A DNA stretch of 64,000 nucleotides from Oscillospiraceae bacterium (GTDB lineage: Bacteria > Bacillota > Clostridia > Oscillospirales > Oscillospiraceae): assembly GCA_017538965.1 (NCBI GenBank), contig JAFYHU010000029.1:1-64000 (forward strand), in the 5' to 3' direction. A model generated the notes under the pieces. The model was given only the letters and a program-made list of their open reading frames with translations. It was not told the origin of the DNA and searched no databases. Numbering within the stretch: the first letter of the stretch is position 1; every line of letters begins with the position of its first letter. Below, piece by piece: positions 53,968-64,000 of this stretch. Position numbers and translations under genes: made by a program.

Positions 53968-56900
53968 ATGGAGAAAAGTAGGACGAAAGACCTGATTGCG
54001 CTGCTCATTGCGGCTGTTCTGTTAGTCGTTTTGATTGTCGGCCATGTCCGGGTAAACCAGAGCCAGGTTTTCCGCATGCCCGAAGACGGTCAGCTGCTGA
54101 CGGCTACGGTGCAGGGAAGAAACGGTCCCGTCGCGGTCGAAGTTGCGGCAGGCCCGACGGAGTTCTATCGCGTCAAAATCACCTCACATGAAGAAACGGA
54201 AGGCATCGGCACGCTGGCCGTGGATGCGCTTCCCGATACGATTATGGAAAGCCAGCGTCTGGATTTTGACGCTGTCAGCGGTGCCACGATCACCTCTGAA
54301 GCCATCCGCCTAGCGGTTGCCGAGGCGCTTGAGTCCGGCGGAATCGATCCCGCTGCCTTCGGCTATGTAGCCAAGACAGAAGGGACGGAGGAAAAAGGGA
54401 CGGAGCAGGCTTCTGCAGAACCGGCGGCTGCGCCTGTCGCTGCAGCCGGCGCCTATGTGCCCGGAACCTATACTGCGGAAGCGACCGGCATGGGCACGGT
54501 GAAGGTCAGTGTCACGGTGGACGAGAGCTCAATCACGGAAGTTGTGCTTGACACCTCGGGCGAGACGCCTGAGATCGGCGGCGCGGCGACGGAAGAGCTT
54601 ACTGCCCAGGTCATGCAGGCACAGGGCGCTGCGATTGACGGCGTTTCCGGTGCAACCCTGACGAGCAACGCGGTCAGCACGGCGGTTGCCGACGCGCTTG
54701 CACAGGCAGCGGCCGCACCTGCGGAAGAGACTGCTGCAGCCGGCGCCTATGTGCCCGGAACCTATACTGCGGAAGCGACCAGTATGGGCAAGGTGAAGGT
54801 CAGCGTTACGGTGGACGAAAGCGCAATCACCGATGTTGTGCTCGACACCTCGGGCGAGACGCCTGAGATCGGCGGCGCAGCGACGGAAGAGCTCACCGCT
54901 CAGGTCATGCAGGCACAGGGCGCTGCGATTGACGGCGTGTCCGGTGCAACGCTGACGAGCAACGCGGTCAGCACGGCGGTTGCCGATGCGCTTGCACAGG
55001 CAGCGGCCGCACCTGCCGAAGAGGCTGCGCCTGCTGAAGAGACCGCGCCTGCCGAAGAAGAACAGGCGGCCGAACCGGAGGCTGCTGCCGCAGCGACGGA
55101 AGCGTCCGCCGATGCCCAGACCCTGACGGGGTCCGGAATGGGCAAGGTCGGCAATGTCGATGTCGAGGTGGTGGCCGATAACGATGCCATCTACTCGATT
55201 GCGGTTACCAAGCATGATGAGACGCCCGGCATCGGCACCATCGCCGTGGATCAGATTCCCGGCGCGATTGTTGCCGCTCAGAGCCTGAAGGTCGACGCCA
55301 TTACCGGCGCCACCATGACGACGGATGCCATAAAGGAAGCCGTCGCTGCGGCTCTTGCATCCGGCGGCATCGATGTTTCAAAATTTGAAAAGGATATAGA
55401 AGCCGACGCCGAGCCCAAGGAAAAGACTCCGGAGACCCTTGACTGTGACGTGGTCATCGTTGGTGCCGGCGGTGCCGGTCTGACGGCTGCGGTGCGTGCC
55501 TCCCAGGAGGGCGTCAAGGTCCTCGTGCTCGAGAAGATGCCCATGGTGGGCGGCAACTCGAACCGTGCCGAGGGCGGCATGAACGCTGCCGGCACAAAAC
55601 TGGAGGAAGAACTCGGGCTGGATGACAGCACGGTTGAAAACTTTGCGGCGGATACCCTCCGCCTCGGACACGACCTGGCCGACCCGGATCTGGTTCAGAC
55701 CCTGGCTGAGAACAGCTCTGACGCGGTCGAGTGGCTCAAGACCGTCGGTGCCGAGTTTACCGACGTCCATGCCACCGGCGGCTGCGAAGGACGCAAGTAC
55801 CTGCATCAGCCGGAAGGCGGCCGTGCAGTCGGCGAGTTCCTGGTAGAAAAACTGAGCGCCGCGGCGGAAGAGCAGGGAATCGAGATCATGCTCAACACCA
55901 GGGCCACCGAAATCCTCCTGGATGACAACGGCTGCGCCGTCGGCGTCATGGCTGAGGACAGCGATCATATCTATACCGTCAACGCAAAGGCGGTTGTGCT
56001 GGCCACCGGCGGCTTCGGATCGAACTTTGAGATGATGTGCAGCTACGATCCCAGCCTGGAGAACGCCGTGACCACCAACCACTCCGGTGCGACCGGCGAC
56101 GGCATCGTGATGGCGCAGGCCATCGGCGCTGACACGGTCGACATGGAGCAGATTCAGCTGCATCCGACGGTGATTCAGGAAGACGGCACGCTGGTTTCCG
56201 AGTCCCTGCGCAGCAAGGGAGCCATCGTGGTCAACACCGAGGGCAAGCGCTTTGTGAACGACCTGGCCGGCCGTGACGTGGTCTCCCAGGCGGAACTCAA
56301 GCAGCCCGACGGCTATTGCTTCATCATCTTCGACCAGCACTTGGTAGACGGCCTCGCGCTGGCGCAGAAGTTTATCGATCGCGGCTATGCGATCAGCGGC
56401 GACACCTATGAAGAGCTCGCCGTGAACATGGGCCTTACCGACGACGCGGTGCAGAACTTCGTCAATACCATGAACACCTGGAACGAGTCCGTTGCGAAGG
56501 GGATCGATGAAGAGTTCGGCCGCAACAACGGCATGGACGATGATCTGACCACCGCTCCGTTCTACGCGATCAAGATCGCCCCGGGCATCCACCATACGAT
56601 GGGCGGCATCAAGATCGATACCAACGCGGAAGTCATTAATACCGACGGCAACGTCATTCCCGGTCTGTTTGCGGCCGGCGAGACGACCGGCGGCATTCAC
56701 GGCGGAAACCGTGTCGGCGGCAACGCCGTCTGCGACTTTGTCGTGTTCGGCCGGATTGCCGGCACCAACGCCGCCGCCTATGTCAAAGGAGAGAGCATCA
56801 CTGCGGAGCCTGCTTCTAAGGAAGCGGCTCCCGCGGCGGGCGCTGTCTATGTGCCCGGAACCTATACCGCGGAAGCGAACGGTATGGGGAAGGTGAAGGT

Positions 56901-59355
56901 CAGCGTCACGGTGGACGAAAGTGCGATCACCGAAGTTGTGCTCGACACCTCGGGCGAGACGCCTGCAATCGGCGGCGCGGCGACGGAAGAGCTCACCGCC
57001 CAGGTCATGCAGGCACAAGGCGCCGCAATTGACGGCGTGGCCGGCGCAACAATGACGAGCAACGCGGTCAGTACGGCGGTTGCCGACGCCCTTGCACAGG
57101 CGGCCGCTCCTGCCGAGGCGGAAGAGACGGCTGAGACAGCAGGGACGGAGCCTGTGGAAGAGAAAACGGATGCGGCCGAAGCACAGACCCTTTCCGGAGT
57201 CGCCGAAGGCAGAAACGGTCCCATCGAAGTGGATGTTGTCGCGGACAAGAACGGAATCTATTCCGTTGAAGTGATCTCTCACTCGGAGACCGCAGGCATC
57301 GGTACGATCGCGGTGGACCAGATTCCTGCCGCCATTGTGGAACAGCAGAGCATTCTGGTGGATTCCGTCAGCGGTGCCACGGTGACATCCGATGCAATCA
57401 AGACCGCGGTTTCGGCTGCCCTGACCGGCGGCAAGATCGACCCGGCGAACTTTGAAGTGGCCGCTGCGGCCGTTGAGACCGTCGAAGACGTGATGATGGA
57501 TGTCGATGTCGTCGTTGTCGGCGCCGGCGGCGCCGGTATGACGGCCGCCATTACAGCTGCGGATGCCGGCAAGTCGGTCGTGGTTCTGGAAAGCCAGGGC
57601 ATCGTCGGCGGCAACTCCGCCCGCTCCACGGGCGGCATGAACGCCGCTCCGACCGAGTGGCAGCAGGCCAACGAATTCGGCGAGAGCGCCGGCGTGGAAA
57701 GCACGCTGAAGAAAGTAGAAAACTATCCCGACAACGAGAGAATTCAAGAACTCGGCAAGATTGTCGCCGACCAGTGGGAAGAGTACCAGAAGAATCCGGA
57801 AGGATACTTTGATTCTGCCGAACTCTTCCAGCTGGATACCATGATCGGCGGCGGCGGGATCAACAACCCCGCGCTGGTCAAAAAGCTTGTGGAAAACAGC
57901 CCAGACGCGATTGACTGGCTCGGCCAGCTCGATCCCGAAGTCATCCTGCACAATGTTGCTGCATTCGGCGGCGCTTCCGTCAAGCGCATCCACCGTCCGG
58001 TTGACGAGAACGGCAAGACCCTCTCGGTCGGCGCCTATATGGTGCCTCTGCTGAAGGAGAATCTGGACAAGCGCGGCATTGAAGTTCTCACCAACACCAC
58101 CGCAAAAGAGATTTTGATGGATAACGGCACTGCCGTCGGCATTGTCGCCGAGACCTCGGACGGCGCGACGGTAACCGTGAACGCGAAGGCCGTTGTGATT
58201 ACCACCGGCGGCTTCGGCGCCAACAACGACATGATCGCGTCCATCCGTCCCGAACTGGACGGCTTCATCACCACCAACGCACCCGGCATTCAGGGCCAGG
58301 GCATCCAGATGGCTCAGGCCGTCGGGGCCGATACCGTTGACATGGATCAGATCCAGCTGCATCCCACGGTCCATGTCCAGGGGAGCGACGCAGTTCTGAT
58401 CACCGAAGGTCTCCGCGGCGACGGCGCCATCCTTGTCAATCAGGAAGGCGAGCGCTTCTTTGACGAAGTCTCCACCCGTGACAAGGTCTCCAATGCCGAG
58501 TTTGCCCAGACCGGCGGCTACGCCTGGCTGATCATCGACAGCCGCATGAGCGACGCGTCCAACGTCATTCAGGGCTACATCAACAAGGGCTATGCCGAGA
58601 CCGGCGAAACCTACGAAGAGCTGGCCGAGGCCATCGGAGCACCGGCGGATGCTTTCGCAGCCACGATGGAGAAATGGAACAAGTGTGTCGAAGCCAAGGA
58701 AGATCCGGACTTCGGCCGCGTGTCCTTTGCCAACCCGCTGGATCAGGCACCCTATTATGCCATTAAGGTTCAGCCCGGTATCCATCATACCATGGGCGGC
58801 ATCAAGATCAACGACAATGCCCAGGTCATCGACACCGACGGCAATGTGATCCCCGGCCTGTTTGCAGCCGGTGAGACGACCGGCGGCGTCCACGGAAACA
58901 ACCGCCTCGGCGGCAATGCCGTAGCCGACTTCACGATCTTCGGCCGCATTGCCGGCAGCAGCGCTGCGGCTTGTGTCGACGGGGAGAGCCCCGCTGCAGA
59001 ACCCGCTTCCGAGGAAGCCTCCTCCAGCCGGACACAGACGCTTACCGGCTCCGCGATGGGCAAGGTAGGCCCGGTCGAGGTTGAGGTTGTTGCCGACGAT
59101 GACAGCATTCTCTCTGTCACCGTAACCAACCATGGAGAAACTCCGGGGATCGGCACCATTGCCGTTGACCAGATTCCCGGCGCCATTGTTGAACGCCAGG
59201 GGCTGGATGTCGATGCGGTCGGCGGTGCAACCGTGACCTCCGAGGCGATTATTGAGGCGGTATCTCAGGCGCTCGAATCCGGCGGCATCAACCCCTCCGC
59301 CTACGGCGGCTCCGGCGATGCGCATGACGGCGCACCGATCGGCAAAGAAGTATAA
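53968..59355 (+). CDS. Giant exported flavoprotein: seven FMN_bind modules and two fumarate-reductase-like FAD domains
   Basis: The 1795-residue product has one N-terminal membrane anchor (about 9-27) and is otherwise extracytoplasmic. Order: four FMN_bind modules, FAD_binding_2 domain A (about 492-945), two FMN_bind modules, FAD_binding_2 domain B (about 1178-1670), a final FMN_bind module. FMN_bind domains carry FMN covalently on a Thr placed by ApbE; the candidate threonines, each in a GAT motif, are 107, 230, 328, 449, 1028, 1138 and 1755. Both FAD domains have the dinucleotide motif VGAGGAG, LHPT and HHTMGG, and keep the arginine of fumarate reductases (Arg769 in AGRD, Arg1504 in STRD). 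Likely role: reduce an external electron acceptor with electrons from the membrane. Substrates, and whether domains A and B differ, are unknown. No apbE is in the window. Confidence 0.93.
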   Translation: MEKSRTKDLIALLIAAVLLVVLIVGHVRVNQSQVFRMPEDGQLLTATVQGRNGPVAVEVAAGPTEFYRVKITSHEETEGIGTLAVDALPDTIMESQRLDFDAVSGATITSEAIRLAVAEALESGGIDPAAFGYVAKTEGTEEKGTEQASAEPAAAPVAAAGAYVPGTYTAEATGMGTVKVSVTVDESSITEVVLDTSGETPEIGGAATEELTAQVMQAQGAAIDGVSGATLTSNAVSTAVADALAQAAAAPAEETAAAGAYVPGTYTAEATSMGKVKVSVTVDESAITDVVLDTSGETPEIGGAATEELTAQVMQAQGAAIDGVSGATLTSNAVSTAVADALAQAAAAPAEEAAPAEETAPAEEEQAAEPEAAAAATEASADAQTLTGSGMGKVGNVDVEVVADNDAIYSIAVTKHDETPGIGTIAVDQIPGAIVAAQSLKVDAITGATMTTDAIKEAVAAALASGGIDVSKFEKDIEADAEPKEKTPETLDCDVVIVGAGGAGLTAAVRASQEGVKVLVLEKMPMVGGNSNRAEGGMNAAGTKLEEELGLDDSTVENFAADTLRLGHDLADPDLVQTLAENSSDAVEWLKTVGAEFTDVHATGGCEGRKYLHQPEGGRAVGEFLVEKLSAAAEEQGIEIMLNTRATEILLDDNGCAVGVMAEDSDHIYTVNAKAVVLATGGFGSNFEMMCSYDPSLENAVTTNHSGATGDGIVMAQAIGADTVDMEQIQLHPTVIQEDGTLVSESLRSKGAIVVNTEGKRFVNDLAGRDVVSQAELKQPDGYCFIIFDQHLVDGLALAQKFIDRGYAISGDTYEELAVNMGLTDDAVQNFVNTMNTWNESVAKGIDEEFGRNNGMDDDLTTAPFYAIKIAPGIHHTMGGIKIDTNAEVINTDGNVIPGLFAAGETTGGIHGGNRVGGNAVCDFVVFGRIAGTNAAAYVKGESITAEPASKEAAPAAGAVYVPGTYTAEANGMGKVKVSVTVDESAITEVVLDTSGETPAIGGAATEELTAQVMQAQGAAIDGVAGATMTSNAVSTAVADALAQAAAPAEAEETAETAGTEPVEEKTDAAEAQTLSGVAEGRNGPIEVDVVADKNGIYSVEVISHSETAGIGTIAVDQIPAAIVEQQSILVDSVSGATVTSDAIKTAVSAALTGGKIDPANFEVAAAAVETVEDVMMDVDVVVVGAGGAGMTAAITAADAGKSVVVLESQGIVGGNSARSTGGMNAAPTEWQQANEFGESAGVESTLKKVENYPDNERIQELGKIVADQWEEYQKNPEGYFDSAELFQLDTMIGGGGINNPALVKKLVENSPDAIDWLGQLDPEVILHNVAAFGGASVKRIHRPVDENGKTLSVGAYMVPLLKENLDKRGIEVLTNTTAKEILMDNGTAVGIVAETSDGATVTVNAKAVVITTGGFGANNDMIASIRPELDGFITTNAPGIQGQGIQMAQAVGADTVDMDQIQLHPTVHVQGSDAVLITEGLRGDGAILVNQEGERFFDEVSTRDKVSNAEFAQTGGYAWLIIDSRMSDASNVIQGYINKGYAETGETYEELAEAIGAPADAFAATMEKWNKCVEAKEDPDFGRVSFANPLDQAPYYAIKVQPGIHHTMGGIKINDNAQVIDTDGNVIPGLFAAGETTGGVHGNNRLGGNAVADFTIFGRIAGSSAAACVDGESPAAEPASEEASSSRTQTLTGSAMGKVGPVEVEVVADDDSILSVTVTNHGETPGIGTIAVDQIPGAIVERQGLDVDAVGGATVTSEAIIEAVSQALESGGINPSAYGGSGDAHDGAPIGKEV
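54442..54720 (+). repeat. FMN_bind direct repeat, copy A
   Basis: About 280 bases encoding the second FMN_bind module (YVPGTYTAEA to DALAQAAAAP). Nearly identical to 54735-55014 and closely similar to 56838-57110. Confidence 0.9.
54735..55014 (+). repeat. FMN_bind direct repeat, copy B
   Basis: The third FMN_bind module, next to copy A. Few base differences, so a recent tandem duplication. Confidence 0.9.
56838..57110 (+). repeat. FMN_bind direct repeat, copy C
   Basis: The fifth FMN_bind module, between the two FAD domains. Same sequence family as copies A and B, with AGAT in place of SGAT. Confidence 0.88.
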
Positions 59356-59558: not shown

Positions 59559-60245
59559 ATGCAGTACAAAATTCAGGGAGATAATATGCCGGTCGTGATC
59601 TGCGCCCTTGAGGACGGAGAATCCATGGTCTGCGAAGCGGGGGCCATGAGCTGGATGAGCCCCAACATGGAGATGGAGACGAAATCCAAGGGCGGTCTCG
59701 GCGGCTTTTTCGGCCGCGCGCTGTCCGGCGAAAGCGGCTTCCAGAACTTCTACACCGCGCGGGGCGGTCAGGGCCTGATTGCGTTTGCCTCGTCCTATGT
59801 CGGAAATCTCCTGGCAGTGGAAATCACGCCGGACAAACCCATCATCATTCAGAAGCGGGCTTTCCTCGCATGCACGACGGGCGTTGAGATGGAGGTCTTC
59901 TTCCAGAAGAAAATCGGCACGGCGCTGTTCGGCGGCGAAGGCTTCATCATGCAGAAGCTCTCCGGCAGCGGCACCGTCTTCCTTGAGCTGGACGGTTCGG
60001 TTATCGAGTACGAGCTCAAGGCCGGCGAAAAGATGCTGATCTCCTCGGGCCATCTCGCCATGATGGACGAGACGGTTACCATGGACATCCAGCAGATCAA
60101 AGGCGTCAAAAACGTCCTCTTCGGCGGCGAAAGCCTCTTCAACACCGTCGTCACCGGCCCGGGCGTCGTCACGGTTCAGAGCATGCCGCTCTCCAATCTG
60201 ATCGGTCTGATTGCCGCCCGCATACCGACAAGCAGCAGCAACTAA
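59559..60245 (+). CDS. AIM24 / TIGR00266-family protein
   Basis: A 228-residue protein of the AIM24 family, a double beta-barrel of unknown bacterial function. Seen: YKIQGDNMPVVICALEDGES, AGAMSWMSPNMEMETKSKGG, the glycine-rich FFGRALSGESGFQNFYTA and the C-terminal GVVTVQSMPLSNLIGLI. No signal peptide or membrane segment, so it is cytoplasmic. Strong AAGGAG site. Its place between exported redox proteins may be chance or a real link. Confidence 0.92.
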   Translation: MQYKIQGDNMPVVICALEDGESMVCEAGAMSWMSPNMEMETKSKGGLGGFFGRALSGESGFQNFYTARGGQGLIAFASSYVGNLLAVEITPDKPIIIQKRAFLACTTGVEMEVFFQKKIGTALFGGEGFIMQKLSGSGTVFLELDGSVIEYELKAGEKMLISSGHLAMMDETVTMDIQQIKGVKNVLFGGESLFNTVVTGPGVVTVQSMPLSNLIGLIAARIPTSSSN

Positions 60246-60292
60246 ATCAATCTGAAATTCAGGCAGTCCCGCAGAATCAAAGGAGAAAACCC

Positions 60293-61621
60293 ATGAAAAA
60301 GCTGATTGCGATGATGCTCCTTGTGAGCCTCATGATGAGCATTGCCGTCTCCGCCTGTGCAGAAGGTACGGTCGACCGTGCCACCGCGGAAAAAGACGAC
60401 TTCCCAAAGATCGGAGTAACCCTTTATTATCCCGATAATTTCAAAGTAGAGAAAGGCATTTACACCGTTGCGGCAGACGACGACATTCTTGGTCCCGGCA
60501 TCTATCTTGCCCAGGCCAATTACATCGGCGTCAGCATGGAATGGTATGAATCCGCGCTTCATGTCGAAGACATCAAACAGGAAGATATCGAGAAATACAT
60601 GAATTCGATGGCGGCTCTGTTCATGCTGATCGGTATTGATCAGAACCGGAACGCGGAGGATATCTGTGCCGCCTATAAGGCGCTTACCGGCGCAGACGTC
60701 CTCTCCCCGGACGACATGACCGAAGTCGGGCAGTTCGAGGACATTACCTGGTATCTGCTTGAGAAGGACTTCACCGGCAACGTTCAGAACCTCGACCCGG
60801 TATTTGCGGCAGAATACGACAGCCTTCGCGCACTGGTCGGCACGATCGCTTCCAATGCCGATTATCACCGGCCCTTGGGTACCTATGACGCCATCGCTGA
60901 TCAGACCGTTTCCTTTGAGACCACGGACCTTGACGGCAATCCCGTCACCAGCGAAGAAATCTTCAGCAAGTATGACGTGACCATGATCAACGTATGGGCG
61001 ACCTGGTGCAGCGCCTGCCTCAGCGAACTGAGCGAGTTGGAGGAGATCAACAACCGCCTTGCTGAGAAAAACTGCGCCATTGTCGCTCTCCTCGGGGACG
61101 GTGATGAGGAAGAGACTGTCGCCCTGGGCAGGAAGCAGCTTGAAGAAGCGGGCTGCACTTATCTGTGCCTGCGTCCCTTTGAGGGATGGGAAGAAATGTT
61201 CATCATGAACGAAGGCTGGCCTACGTCGTTCTTCTTTGATTCGACAGGCAAGATGGTTTCCAAACCGATCATCGGTGCCGCAGTGGACAGATATGAGAGC
61301 AGGATAGACGACATCCTCAACGGCGCCGAAACCGGTGAAGCCATCGTAAGCAACGGCAATGAGAATCAGGCAAATGCCTACCGGATCTTTGTTGTGGACC
61401 AGAGCGCCAATCCGGTTGTCGGTGCTATGGTTCAGTTCTGCACCGCCGACACCTGCCAGATCGGCAAGACCGACGAAAACGGGATGGCTTCCTTTGACAA
61501 TCCGGAAGGCATCTATGAGGTGCACATTCTGAAGGTGCCCAAGGGCTACGTGAAAAACGAGTCGCTCTATACAACGCCCGAGACCTACAGCGACATGACC
61601 ATCGTGGTGGAAGCGGCATAA
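60293..61621 (+). CDS. Exported TlpA-like thioredoxin-fold protein with C-terminal SpaA-like domain
   Basis: A 442-residue exported protein. The signal peptide ends in AVSACAEG, which fits both a lipobox (Cys22) and a signal-peptidase I site. Residues about 25-195 are a helical/beta domain I do not recognise. Residues about 210-350 are TlpA/ResA-like with the active-site pair Cys239-Cys242 in WATWCSACL and the cis-proline region GWPTSFFFD. Residues about 363-442 form a small beta-sandwich (carboxypeptidase-regulatory or SpaA-like: VDQSANPVVGAMVQFCTAD). It probably handles disulfide or thiol redox outside the cell. AAGGAG precedes the start. Confidence 0.87.
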   Translation: MKKLIAMMLLVSLMMSIAVSACAEGTVDRATAEKDDFPKIGVTLYYPDNFKVEKGIYTVAADDDILGPGIYLAQANYIGVSMEWYESALHVEDIKQEDIEKYMNSMAALFMLIGIDQNRNAEDICAAYKALTGADVLSPDDMTEVGQFEDITWYLLEKDFTGNVQNLDPVFAAEYDSLRALVGTIASNADYHRPLGTYDAIADQTVSFETTDLDGNPVTSEEIFSKYDVTMINVWATWCSACLSELSELEEINNRLAEKNCAIVALLGDGDEEETVALGRKQLEEAGCTYLCLRPFEGWEEMFIMNEGWPTSFFFDSTGKMVSKPIIGAAVDRYESRIDDILNGAETGEAIVSNGNENQANAYRIFVVDQSANPVVGAMVQFCTADTCQIGKTDENGMASFDNPEGIYEVHILKVPKGYVKNESLYTTPETYSDMTIVVEAA

Positions 61622-61648
61622 AAGACGTTTCCCGCGAGCAACCAGTCT

Positions 61649-61698
61649 CCCCGGCTGCGCACGAATGAGGTGCGCAGCCGGGGCTGCATCGTTTTTTT
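61649..61698 (+). terminator. Intrinsic terminator after the TlpA-like gene
   Basis: CCCCGGCTGCGCAC (61649-61662) pairs with GTGCGCAGCCGGGG (61670-61683); GTTTTTTT follows after eight bases. Confidence 0.75.
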
Positions 61699-61713
61699 AC
61701 AGATAGGAGCGTG

Positions 61714-62484
61714 ATGTTTGTGACAAGAAACAAGGTGCCGCTGCTTGTGCAGTCGGCGCTGTGTGTTGTGCTGGTCGTCATGCTGGCGGCCGGGGCAATC
61801 GGCATTTACCGTGAGGGCATTGCCGAAAAACAGGAAGACCCGCTTGCCTGGGTCTACACCCGTGAGAAGGCCGCCGCGGCGCTCAGACCCGTTGCGCCGG
61901 TATTCCTGGCGGCTGTCGCGGTAACGGTCGTCTGTGCGGTGCTGAACGTCCGGGATGAAAACGAAAACAAGCCCGTAAAGGATGTGGAGCTCAACCGCAA
62001 CCTGATGCGGGAGCGTGTAGCGGAACCGAGTGAAGCCATGCGCAGGGAACAGGCTTGCCAGAAGAAACTGCTGATCGGCGGCTGGGCGGGATTTGGCATA
62101 TGCATGCTGCCCGTTCTGCTGTATATGATAAACGGCAGTCACTTTCAGAACGGGGATCTCGAGGAAATGATCGGGGGCGTAGCCCTGCATGTGTTCCCCT
62201 GGATTATTCTCGGTCTGGCCTGTCTCATAACGTCCGAGATTCTTCAGGGCAGGAGCATTCAGCGGGAGTATGATGCCGTCATGGAGCGCATCAAAGAGGA
62301 AAAGGCCGCCGGGATCAAAGTGGACCCGAAGGAAAAGCAACTCGAAAAAAGCTGTACGCTGCTGCGGGTGATTCTGCTCGTTGTCGCTGTGGTGTTCATC
62401 CTTGTCGGCATCCGCAACGGAAGCATGAACGCCGTCATCAATAAGGCGATCAGAATTTGTACGGAGTGTGTTGGCCTTGGATAA
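61714..62484 (+). CDS. Membrane protein with C-terminal CXXC motif (CD1871A-like tail)
   Basis: A 256-residue membrane protein with about five hydrophobic segments (near 10-28, 55-75, 125-145, 155-175, 215-232). The last 40 residues, ending in NKAIRICTECVGLG, match the small CXXC proteins of the CD1871A type that sit next to Fe-S membrane proteins in clostridia; here that tail is part of a longer protein with four extra helices. The CTEC pair lies just after the final helix. The ATG at 61714 is preceded by AGGAG; a GTG at 61711 is an alternative. It overlaps the next gene by about 8 bases. Confidence 0.75.
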   Translation: MFVTRNKVPLLVQSALCVVLVVMLAAGAIGIYREGIAEKQEDPLAWVYTREKAAAALRPVAPVFLAAVAVTVVCAVLNVRDENENKPVKDVELNRNLMRERVAEPSEAMRREQACQKKLLIGGWAGFGICMLPVLLYMINGSHFQNGDLEEMIGGVALHVFPWIILGLACLITSEILQGRSIQREYDAVMERIKEEKAAGIKVDPKEKQLEKSCTLLRVILLVVAVVFILVGIRNGSMNAVINKAIRICTECVGLG

Positions 62485-64000
62485 TTTGAAAGTTTCATGG
62501 TGGGAATCCCACCGCCCGTCCAGGAGACGGCTGATTCAGCTCTACTGTGCCCTGCTCTACAACGCCCATATCAAGGGCTTTCTGGAGGGCGAGATCTATA
62601 AGAGCAAAGTGCCCACAACAAAGGGAATCTGCGTTCCCGGTTTTAACTGCTATTCCTGCCCCGGGGCGGTCGGAGCCTGCCCGCTGGGCTCTCTGCAGAA
62701 TGCCATCGGGACGACCAACAAGCAGATCGGTTTCTATGTTTTCGGAATCCTGATGCTCTACGGGTTGATTCTGGGCCGCACGATCTGCGGCTGGCTCTGC
62801 CCTCTGGGACTCATTCAGGAGCTGCTGCACAAACTGCCGACGCCGAAGATCAGGAAGAGCCGTGTTACCCGCGCACTGTCCTATCTGAAATACATCATTC
62901 TAGCGGTCTTTGCCATCGGGATTACGGCCTGGTACGGCATTGCCCATGGCGTGGCTCTGCCGGGCTTCTGCAAATACATCTGTCCCGCGGGCACATTCGA
63001 GGGTGCGATCATGCTGCTCTCGAATCCGAATAACGCCGGTGATTTCAGCATGCTGAATATCCTGTTCACGCGCAAGTTCGTCATCATGCTGATCATCGGC
63101 CTCGCCTGTGTATTCTGCTACCGCAGCTTCTGCCGCTTTCTCTGCCCGCTGGGCGCCATCTACGGTTTCTTCTGCAAACTTGCCGTTGTAGGCGTGAAAG
63201 TGGATACAACTCGCTGCAACGGCTGCGGTTCCTGCGTACGCAATTGTCAGATGGACGTCCGCCATGTGGGCGACCATGAATGCATCCACTGTGCCAAATG
63301 TATGGATGTCTGCAATCAGAAGGCGATTAGTCTGAAAGCGGGCAGGTTTACATTGAAAGCGCCCGCCGGCGGCTGCACCGATGACAGACCCGATGCAGAA
63401 TCAAAGCGAAAGAAGATTGAAAAAATCGCCTGGGGCATTGCCCTTGCCGTGCTCTGCTTTGCCCTGCTTTGGTACAATGTGCTTGATCCCAATATTAAGA
63501 AGAAGACGAAAGAACCCGCATCACAGCCGCCCATTGAAACGACAGCGGAGACTCCGGCTGCGGCGAATGATGAATCGGCCGTGGAGCAGCCGGCAGCAGA
63601 AGACTGGAGCAGCGACGCGCCGCTCGGCTGTGAAGTCGGCAATCAGCTGCCCAATTTCAGCATCGAGTGCCTGGACGGCTCCGTATTTACCCTGTCGGAG
63701 ACGCGCGGAAAGCCGGTGTTCATCAATCTGTGGGCGACCTATTGCGGCCCCTGCGTCAAGGAACTGCCGCATTTCAGCGAGCTCTATAAAGAGCATGAGG
63801 GTGACATTGCCATGCTTGCGCTGCACTCGGATATTGTTGCCGACGATCCGGCCGAGTACCTGGAAGAATTCGGCAGCGACTGGGTTATGCCTTTTGCCGT
63901 CGAGACGGATGACGAAGAGATCTGGGACCTCGTGGGCGGCACGACCGCCATGCCGCAGACCATCGTCCTGAACCGTCACGGCGAGGTCATTTACAACCAG
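62477..64000 (+). CDS. NapH/YccM-type Fe-S membrane protein fused to a TlpA-like thioredoxin domain (partial)
   Basis: The frame is open to the window end (508 codons) with no stop. The N-terminal part has cysteine motifs CVPGFNCYSCPGAVGACPLGS, CGWLCPLGL, CKYICPAGTF and CRFLCPLGA between membrane helices, as in NapH/YccM quinol-oxidising Fe-S proteins. Two 4Fe-4S ferredoxin motifs follow (CNGCGSCVRNC and CIHCAKCMDVC). After a membrane helix (about 318-336) and a Pro/Glu linker comes a thioredoxin domain with the pair Cys423-Cys426 in WATYCGPCVKEL. The start is uncertain: TTG at 62477, GTG at 62468 or TTG at 62471. Likely it passes electrons across the membrane to a periplasmic-side thiol or flavin partner. 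Confidence 0.88.
   Translation, partial: MDNLKVSWWESHRPSRRRLIQLYCALLYNAHIKGFLEGEIYKSKVPTTKGICVPGFNCYSCPGAVGACPLGSLQNAIGTTNKQIGFYVFGILMLYGLILGRTICGWLCPLGLIQELLHKLPTPKIRKSRVTRALSYLKYIILAVFAIGITAWYGIAHGVALPGFCKYICPAGTFEGAIMLLSNPNNAGDFSMLNILFTRKFVIMLIIGLACVFCYRSFCRFLCPLGAIYGFFCKLAVVGVKVDTTRCNGCGSCVRNCQMDVRHVGDHECIHCAKCMDVCNQKAISLKAGRFTLKAPAGGCTDDRPDAESKRKKIEKIAWGIALAVLCFALLWYNVLDPNIKKKTKEPASQPPIETTAETPAAANDESAVEQPAAEDWSSDAPLGCEVGNQLPNFSIECLDGSVFTLSETRGKPVFINLWATYCGPCVKELPHFSELYKEHEGDIAMLALHSDIVADDPAEYLEEFGSDWVMPFAVETDDEEIWDLVGGTTAMPQTIVLNRHGEVIYNQ

Follow-up and report, generated by a model that had tools for sequence, protein, structure and literature searches.

The frame at positions 53968 to 59355 of the window (the whole stretch of 64,000 nucleotides that was analysed) raises the question of whether a single gene encodes seven FMN_bind modules together with two reductase domains and, if so, what such a protein would do and whether its two sites would serve one acceptor or two. 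We propose, at a probability of roughly 0.7 for the explanation as a whole, that the product is a respiratory reductase, anchored in the membrane and located outside the cytosol, whose string of FMN groups feeds two FAD sites.

Gene layout and likely membrane anchor

The frame 53968-59355 (+) is uninterrupted, starts with ATG and encodes 1795 residues, in which Pfam found FMN_bind in seven stretches (8.3e-94, 308.8 bits) and FAD_binding_2 in three (3.4e-168, 560.6 bits), one of the latter corresponding to domain A and two to domain B, where the match is split. Proteins with more than one FMN_bind are classed as multi-flavinylated, and by its seven stretches the window protein would belong among them. 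A reading made from the letters of this DNA (the sequence-only reading) had described seven FMN_bind modules and two full FAD_binding_2 domains, and the Pfam profile search bears this out; the GAT threonines that it placed at residues 107, 230, 328, 449, 1028, 1138 and 1755 are all at these positions. The modules form two classes, X (modules 1, 4, 6 and 7, 48-67% identity) and Y (modules 2, 3 and 5, 91-96% identity), with 33-37% identity between X and Y modules, and the parts of the gene are arranged as follows.

53968..59355, + strand: whole gene, anchor-X1-Y2-Y3-X4-[FAD A]-Y5-X6-[FAD B]-X7, 1795 aa, ATG start (profile matches)
53989..54048, + strand: N-terminal hydrophobic segment, about residues 8-27, with a basic start before it (read from the protein sequence)
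54073..54360, + strand: FMN_bind module X1, motif DAVSGAT, Thr107 (Pfam and motif)
54442..54729, + strand: FMN_bind module Y2, motif DGVSGAT, Thr230, 94% DNA identity to Y3 (Pfam and motif)
54736..55023, + strand: FMN_bind module Y3, motif DGVSGAT, Thr328 (Pfam and motif)
55099..55386, + strand: FMN_bind module X4, motif DAITGAT, Thr449, immediately upstream of FAD domain A (Pfam and motif)
55429..56802, + strand: FAD domain A, fumarate-reductase-like (Pfam, alignment with Fcc3)
56836..57126, + strand: FMN_bind module Y5, motif DGVAGAT with Ala replacing Ser/Thr, Thr1028 (Pfam and motif)
57166..57453, + strand: FMN_bind module X6, motif DSVSGAT, Thr1138, immediately upstream of FAD domain B (Pfam and motif)
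57490..59013, + strand: FAD domain B, fumarate-reductase-like, with 42 residues extra relative to A (Pfam, alignment with Fcc3)
59017..59304, + strand: FMN_bind module X7, motif DAVGGAT with Gly replacing Ser/Thr, Thr1755 (Pfam and motif)

The protein starts with MEKSRTKDLIALLIAAVLLVVLIVGHV, that is, basic residues followed by a hydrophobic stretch, which by its composition is likely to be an uncleaved membrane anchor with the remainder of the protein outside. On the opposite strand, an open frame of 1315 aa (55378-59325, -) overlaps the gene and is likely a shadow of the gene's codon use.

A second record with the same domain order

RUG282 (ONGJ01000032.1, uncultured Clostridiales bacterium isolate RUG282) matches the window protein across residues 1-1790, with 74% identity in the best segment, and has the order X-Y-Y-X-X-A-Y-X-B-X with eight modules. 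The scan over genome contigs gave a single locus, that of RUG282, and the genome G094, which has the same frame, was taken as the same record and counted once. Domains A and B are under purifying selection, with dN/dS between the window and RUG282 of 0.094 for A and 0.077 for B before its break, and module X1 gives 0.074. Upstream of both genes lie two ABC-transporter-like genes and an HD-like gene, and the gene that follows the RUG282 copy differs from that following the window copy. Domain B of RUG282 is interrupted near GIHHTMGG and resumes in another frame (L029:12940-13614, +); since a stretch like GIHHTMGG also occurs in domain A, this break may be an assembly fault.

The sequence-only reading had raised the danger that two separate genes were joined by an assembly error, and we checked for an assembly or annotation error of this kind. 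The suspicion is natural in a gene that contains repeats of 84-94% DNA identity and whose relatives in several cases lie on contigs ending within such genes. Against it, RUG282, a separate record from another species, has the matching domain order (one X module more), and dN/dS is low for both FAD domains; therefore we treat the frame as one gene and an artefactual join as ruled out, its chance being very close to nil.

FMN_bind modules and the ApbE motif

The ApbE motif as published is D-x-x-[S/T]-G-A-[S/T] (PMC12052999). GAT is found in all seven modules of the window and the strict motif in five, the exceptions being modules 5 and 7. Among 140 modules at 43 loci, including the window, 101 have the strict motif and 24, 1 and 1 have Ala, Gly and Cys, respectively, at the fourth place, the sole Gly variant being window module 7, and the string D-x-x-x-G-A-[S/T] is absent from the other 13.

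At the DNA level the Y copies of the window are 85-94% identical. The first two Y copies of RUG282 have 92.4% identity to each other versus 82.6-84.7% to their window counterparts, and as they are nearest each other, this fits repeated copying inside the gene.

One alternative holds that most modules are spacers which keep the reductases off the membrane, with X4 and X6 alone carrying electrons. The two modules off the strict motif, the 13 of 140 without the string and the variable module count among relatives suit such an idea; however, GAT is retained in every window module and the strict motif in five, X1 has a dN/dS of 0.074, and plain spacers do not need flavin sites, and we consider this alternative improbable.

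Modules without D-x-x-x-G-A-[S/T] were observed at loci L044-L047, L049, L066-L068 and L081, a recurring departure from the ApbE motif; in the 10 of the 13 that were inspected, the Gly is replaced (e.g. SSAT, ATAT, STAT).

Family and active sites of FAD domains A and B

The curated models scoring best on the window protein are flavocytochrome c models, and TIGR01813 reached 925.6 bits (cut-off 285.45, whole protein scored). Likewise, the solved structures nearest to A and to B are flavocytochrome c fumarate reductases. Tricarballylate dehydrogenase TcuA (NF006130) scored 411.5 versus a cut-off of 369, with the whole protein and its two stretches scored together. Vinyl phenol reductase VprA (NF053717) was set aside at 357.5, below its cut-off of 600 (whole protein scored).

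When aligned with Fcc3, His732, Glu745, Arg748, Arg769, His875 and Arg915 of domain A and His1465, Glu1480, Arg1483, Arg1504, His1606 and Arg1646 of domain B correspond to His365, Glu378, Arg381, Arg402, His504 and Arg544, where the numbers 504 and 544 were counted on the aligned structure chain. We take UrdA His520 and Arg560 to be the counterparts of Fcc3 His504 and Arg544. In the relevant part of PMC7921117, Fcc3 His364/365, Arg380/381, Glu377/378 and Arg401/402 are named, and the UrdA carboxylate contacts, including His520 and Arg560, are described as conserved in fumarate reductases. The six Fcc3 residues are invariant in 17 A rows and 32 B rows, except for one X and 1-3 gaps per site in B. 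An identity as urocanate reductase was ruled out by His732/His1465 in place of Tyr373 and by Glu745/Glu1480 where UrdA lacks Glu.

The sequence-only reading had argued for different acceptors of A and B from AGRD (767) against STRD (1502) and SESLRSKG (744) against TEGLRGDG (1479). The four strings are present as described, but they hold the same Fcc3-type Glu378, Arg381 and Arg402 in A and B, and AGRD and STRD each include the Arg proposed as proton donor, so that this tempting substrate inference fails and is corrected here. The groups do differ elsewhere: the Fcc3 Met375 position is Leu in both, and the Fcc3 Met236 position is Thr in 17/17 A and Phe in 31/32 B, with a gap in one B; in the window protein these are Thr603 and Phe1333. 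The Met236 position presumably lines the pocket. It is one of 39 alignment columns in which at least 90% of A and at least 90% of B each share a residue that is different between the groups.

Fused, neighbouring and separate parts in the genus

We surveyed 102 genomes from the genus to which the window belongs, counting that of the window itself, at a threshold of E 1e-100. The A query matched in 33/102 genomes and the B query in 38/102, each query also picking up the other domain. Two such FAD domains in one frame were present in at least 10 of the 102 genomes, counting matches at E 1e-100, with fragments below the threshold and the genomes G059 and G103 outside the count. Five are A+B (the window, G094 taken as RUG282, G068, G084 and G114), one is A+A (G047) and four are B+B (G106, G097, G105 and G088); contig ends truncate the double frames of G105, G088 and G114, and G094 has a broken B domain.

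In six genomes an FMN frame without FAD domain lies directly upstream of a reductase on the same strand: G068 (seven modules, followed by X-A-X-B), G084 (six, X-A-X-B), G106 (five, X-X-B-B), G097 (six, X-B-X-B), G107 (six, X-B) and G041 (six, X-B, cut by the contig end). Proteins with at least five FMN_bind domains, which the sequence-only reading had suggested looking for in related genomes, were thus found as FMN-only frames of 5-7 modules and as the RUG282 fusion with eight. In G075, G104 and G051, A is followed by a run of at least three modules and a separate X-B gene lies nearby on the same strand; such a run also precedes A in G075 and G051, and in G104 the gene lacks its start because the contig ends there. 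G060 has a six-module FMN-only frame, with the B gene on another contig. Immediately before each complete A or B domain in the surveyed loci, the same frame holds an FMN module; the exceptions are the second B of G106 and, with their modules in an adjoining frame, A of G013 and B of G108. As read from the sequences, the FMN-only proteins of G068, G041 and G060 have anchor-like starts, and the reductases of G068, G041, G084, G106, G097 and G107 have signal-peptide-like starts.

Two further loci were observed in the survey. The window genome carries on contig C76 a separate X-B reductase (L030:3277-5169, +) with a signal-peptide-like start and a FAD domain 90% identical to window B. The B reductase of G013 (L031:974-4492, +) has two N-terminal repeats of about 200 aa behind a lipoprotein-like start, one of which gave a weak OB-fold match below the cut-off.

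Origin of the doubling

The domain tree was built from 17 A rows and 32 B rows, outside of which stand domains of 400 bits or less (e.g. the partial A of G114 and the first B of G088), the B fragments in L036, L047, L059, L061 and L065, and the matches in G059 and G103. The tree separates A from B (support 100/100). For domain A, the window and RUG282 are sisters (100/94); for domain B, RUG282 is nearer to the separate X-B gene of the window genome than to the window's fused B (100/89). A single A+B origin, with the window, RUG282, G068 and G084 as one clade, was rejected for both domains (p-AU 4.45e-07 for A and 3.08e-07 for B), this four-row grouping having been named after the tree was seen. 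On the tree, 10 changes are needed to account for the label "double", which 18 of the 49 rows carry. In G047 the two A copies pair as sisters, and in G106 and in G097 the two B copies do not. Taken together with the rejected A+B clade, this means that the doubling, or its reversal, took place more than once; recurrent fusion and recurrent splitting may fit the tree equally.

One acceptor or two

These groups bear on what the two sites may reduce. An acceptor difference between A and B is possible from the alignment, but it would act through positions other than those of the earlier argument, such as the Thr/Phe position. The sequence-only reading's idea that A and B reduce different acceptors, as one wire with two specialised outlets, is plausible at a little under even odds: A and B are separate clades (100/100) with 39 group-specific columns, the Met236 position is Thr in A and Phe in B, B has the 42-residue extra stretch, and selection keeps both kinds in one protein, yet the six Fcc3 residues are the same in A and B, the UrdA-type Tyr is in neither, and doublings of A alone and of B alone occur. 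Since A+A and B+B proteins exist, the doubling needs no second acceptor. We rate as possible, at less than even odds, that A and B act on one and the same dicarboxylate, probably fumarate, and that the doubling provides more sites per anchored chain; the six residues common to A and B, the flavocytochrome c fumarate reductases as nearest solved relatives and the A+A and B+B proteins agree with it, and the long separate histories of A and B with their fixed differences, one at the Met236 position, speak against it. To judge from the aligned residues, both domains most likely act on fumarate or a similar acid.

Partners and candidate electron donors

The window genome has two ApbE matches, 20 FMN_bind matches, and Rnf-Nqr family genes with an FMN_bind gene beside them. 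Rnf-Nqr matches were present in 9/9 of the other double-reductase genomes and ApbE in 7/9; the two without an ApbE hit, G068 and G106, are draft genomes with 93 and 88% completeness. In both of these genomes the FMN-only string adjoins the double reductase.

The genes downstream of the reductase gene (window 59559-64000 and L039:2469-4055) code for a member of the AIM24 family, a redoxin-like protein, a product unmatched in Pfam, and a Fer4_5 (4Fe-4S) protein with a C-terminal redoxin. They were not found after the RUG282 gene, and a donor encoded next door was rejected on this ground. No donor gene was seen in a constant place beside the reductase gene, and therefore we infer the donor. The Fer4_5 protein with its redoxin is a possible electron donor. 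Its relatives occur in 8/9 of the other double-reductase genomes (absent from G047), on contigs other than that of the double reductase, the match in G084 being partial only (44%) and that in G088 lying about 6.4 kb from a separate A gene. A promoter and terminator scan, with 3 and 5 found versus 1.6 and 7.0 expected, was uninformative.

Proposed mechanism

Returning to the anchored respiratory reductase, we propose that ApbE would attach FMN to the Thr of the FMN_bind modules, at minimum the five with the strict motif. Electrons would enter from a donor in the membrane, for which the RNF complex or some other redox protein located there is the likeliest candidate, and would move along the flexible FMN string by contact between adjacent beads, X4 passing them to FAD A and X6 to FAD B. 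The two FAD domains would then reduce the double bond of an unsaturated acid, predicted to be fumarate or a close relative, with a hydride and a proton, the latter donated by Arg769 or Arg1504. The protein probably originated by duplication of FMN units and by joining of two old paralogous reductases.

The sequence-only reading had called the protein a multi-flavin wire with two terminal reductase sites, a description that agrees with the anatomy and with the relatives in which string and reductase are neighbouring genes; its biochemical role is predicted. The separate string and reductase in G068, G084, G106, G097, G107 and G041 argue for the explanation, as do the module and domain matches, the six Fcc3 residues common to A and B, the low dN/dS, the FMN modules next to nearly all complete FAD domains, and the ApbE and Rnf-Nqr genes of the window genome; flavinylation, topology, donor, direction of electron flow and substrates are predicted from these. 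It is weakened by modules 5 and 7, which depart from the strict motif, by the failure to find ApbE in 2/9 other genomes (G068 and G106) and by the lack of a conserved position for a donor gene; in addition, a loose FMN chain could be a poor conductor.

Flow in the opposite direction, with an external acid oxidised and its electrons passed to the membrane, or electron storage, is suggested by the dehydrogenases of the superfamily (succinate, 3-ketosteroid and TcuA among the curated matches). We consider it very unlikely, as flavocytochrome c models head the curated matches and the characterised FMN_bind relatives named in the relevant part of PMC8238504 are reductases.

A bolder version of the anchored reductase is speculative and, on balance, rather unlikely: the polypeptide would be a self-contained outer respiratory chain with nine flavins (seven covalent FMN and two FAD), a leash with a length determined by the module count and sufficient to cross the Gram-positive wall, and two coupled reductase sites. 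Pairing, mixed and like, would then have been selected several times in the genus since two sites on one string help, for example when two-electron turnovers are fed by one-electron hops.

Comparison with known systems

Within one genus, the same parts range from separate genes through neighbouring genes to fusions, a natural series that spans FMN-only strings of 5 to 7 modules, fusions of up to eight, and one or two reductase domains. With this series one can test the role of multi-flavinylated proteins, here physically tied to identified enzyme domains, and ask if electron reach depends on how many FMN beads there are. Little and colleagues are said to have dealt in 2024 with gut flavin reductases and their acceptors. 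The general kind has been known since 2021, when a study described multi-flavinylated proteins as well as multiple fumarate-reductase-like domains (PMC8238504), and beads-on-a-string models have been described (PMC11334425). In mainly open-access text, figures and supplements aside, we found neither the window protein nor the A/B pair of paralogues described, nor the pair formed by a string gene and a double-reductase gene. The present analysis adds to PMC8238504 that the two FAD domains are old paralogues, joined as A+B, A+A and B+B, and that some relatives encode the string in a gene of its own.

With its seven modules and two FAD domains, the protein is distinguished from several characterised flavoproteins. 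Its domain numbers differ from those of Listeria monocytogenes FrdA. FrdA links, as predicted for the window protein, an FMN-binding domain to an extracellular fumarate-reductase-like domain, and its donor chain is encoded elsewhere; Listeria FrdA and Shewanella UrdA are described there as shown to be flavinylated, with electrons from chain parts encoded elsewhere (PMC8238504). The Shewanella flavocytochrome c3 fumarate reductases (1qjd, 1qo8, 1d4c) belong to the same FAD family and have the same six residues as window A and B, but they have one FAD domain, and a cytochrome domain where the window has FMN modules (FccA, PMC8238504). UrdA (6t85, PMC7921117) has an FMN-bearing N-terminal domain, as predicted for the window protein, and shares a FAD domain and an Arg proposed as proton donor, whereas A and B have His for its Tyr373 and a Glu that it lacks. 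Finally, covalent FMN was found on SaFMN3 and CbFMN4, which were predicted to carry three and four and bear them at Thr like the putative carriers of the window; no reductase domain is named for them in the relevant part of the source, and they are more like the relatives' FMN-only genes than like the window protein (PMC10339131).
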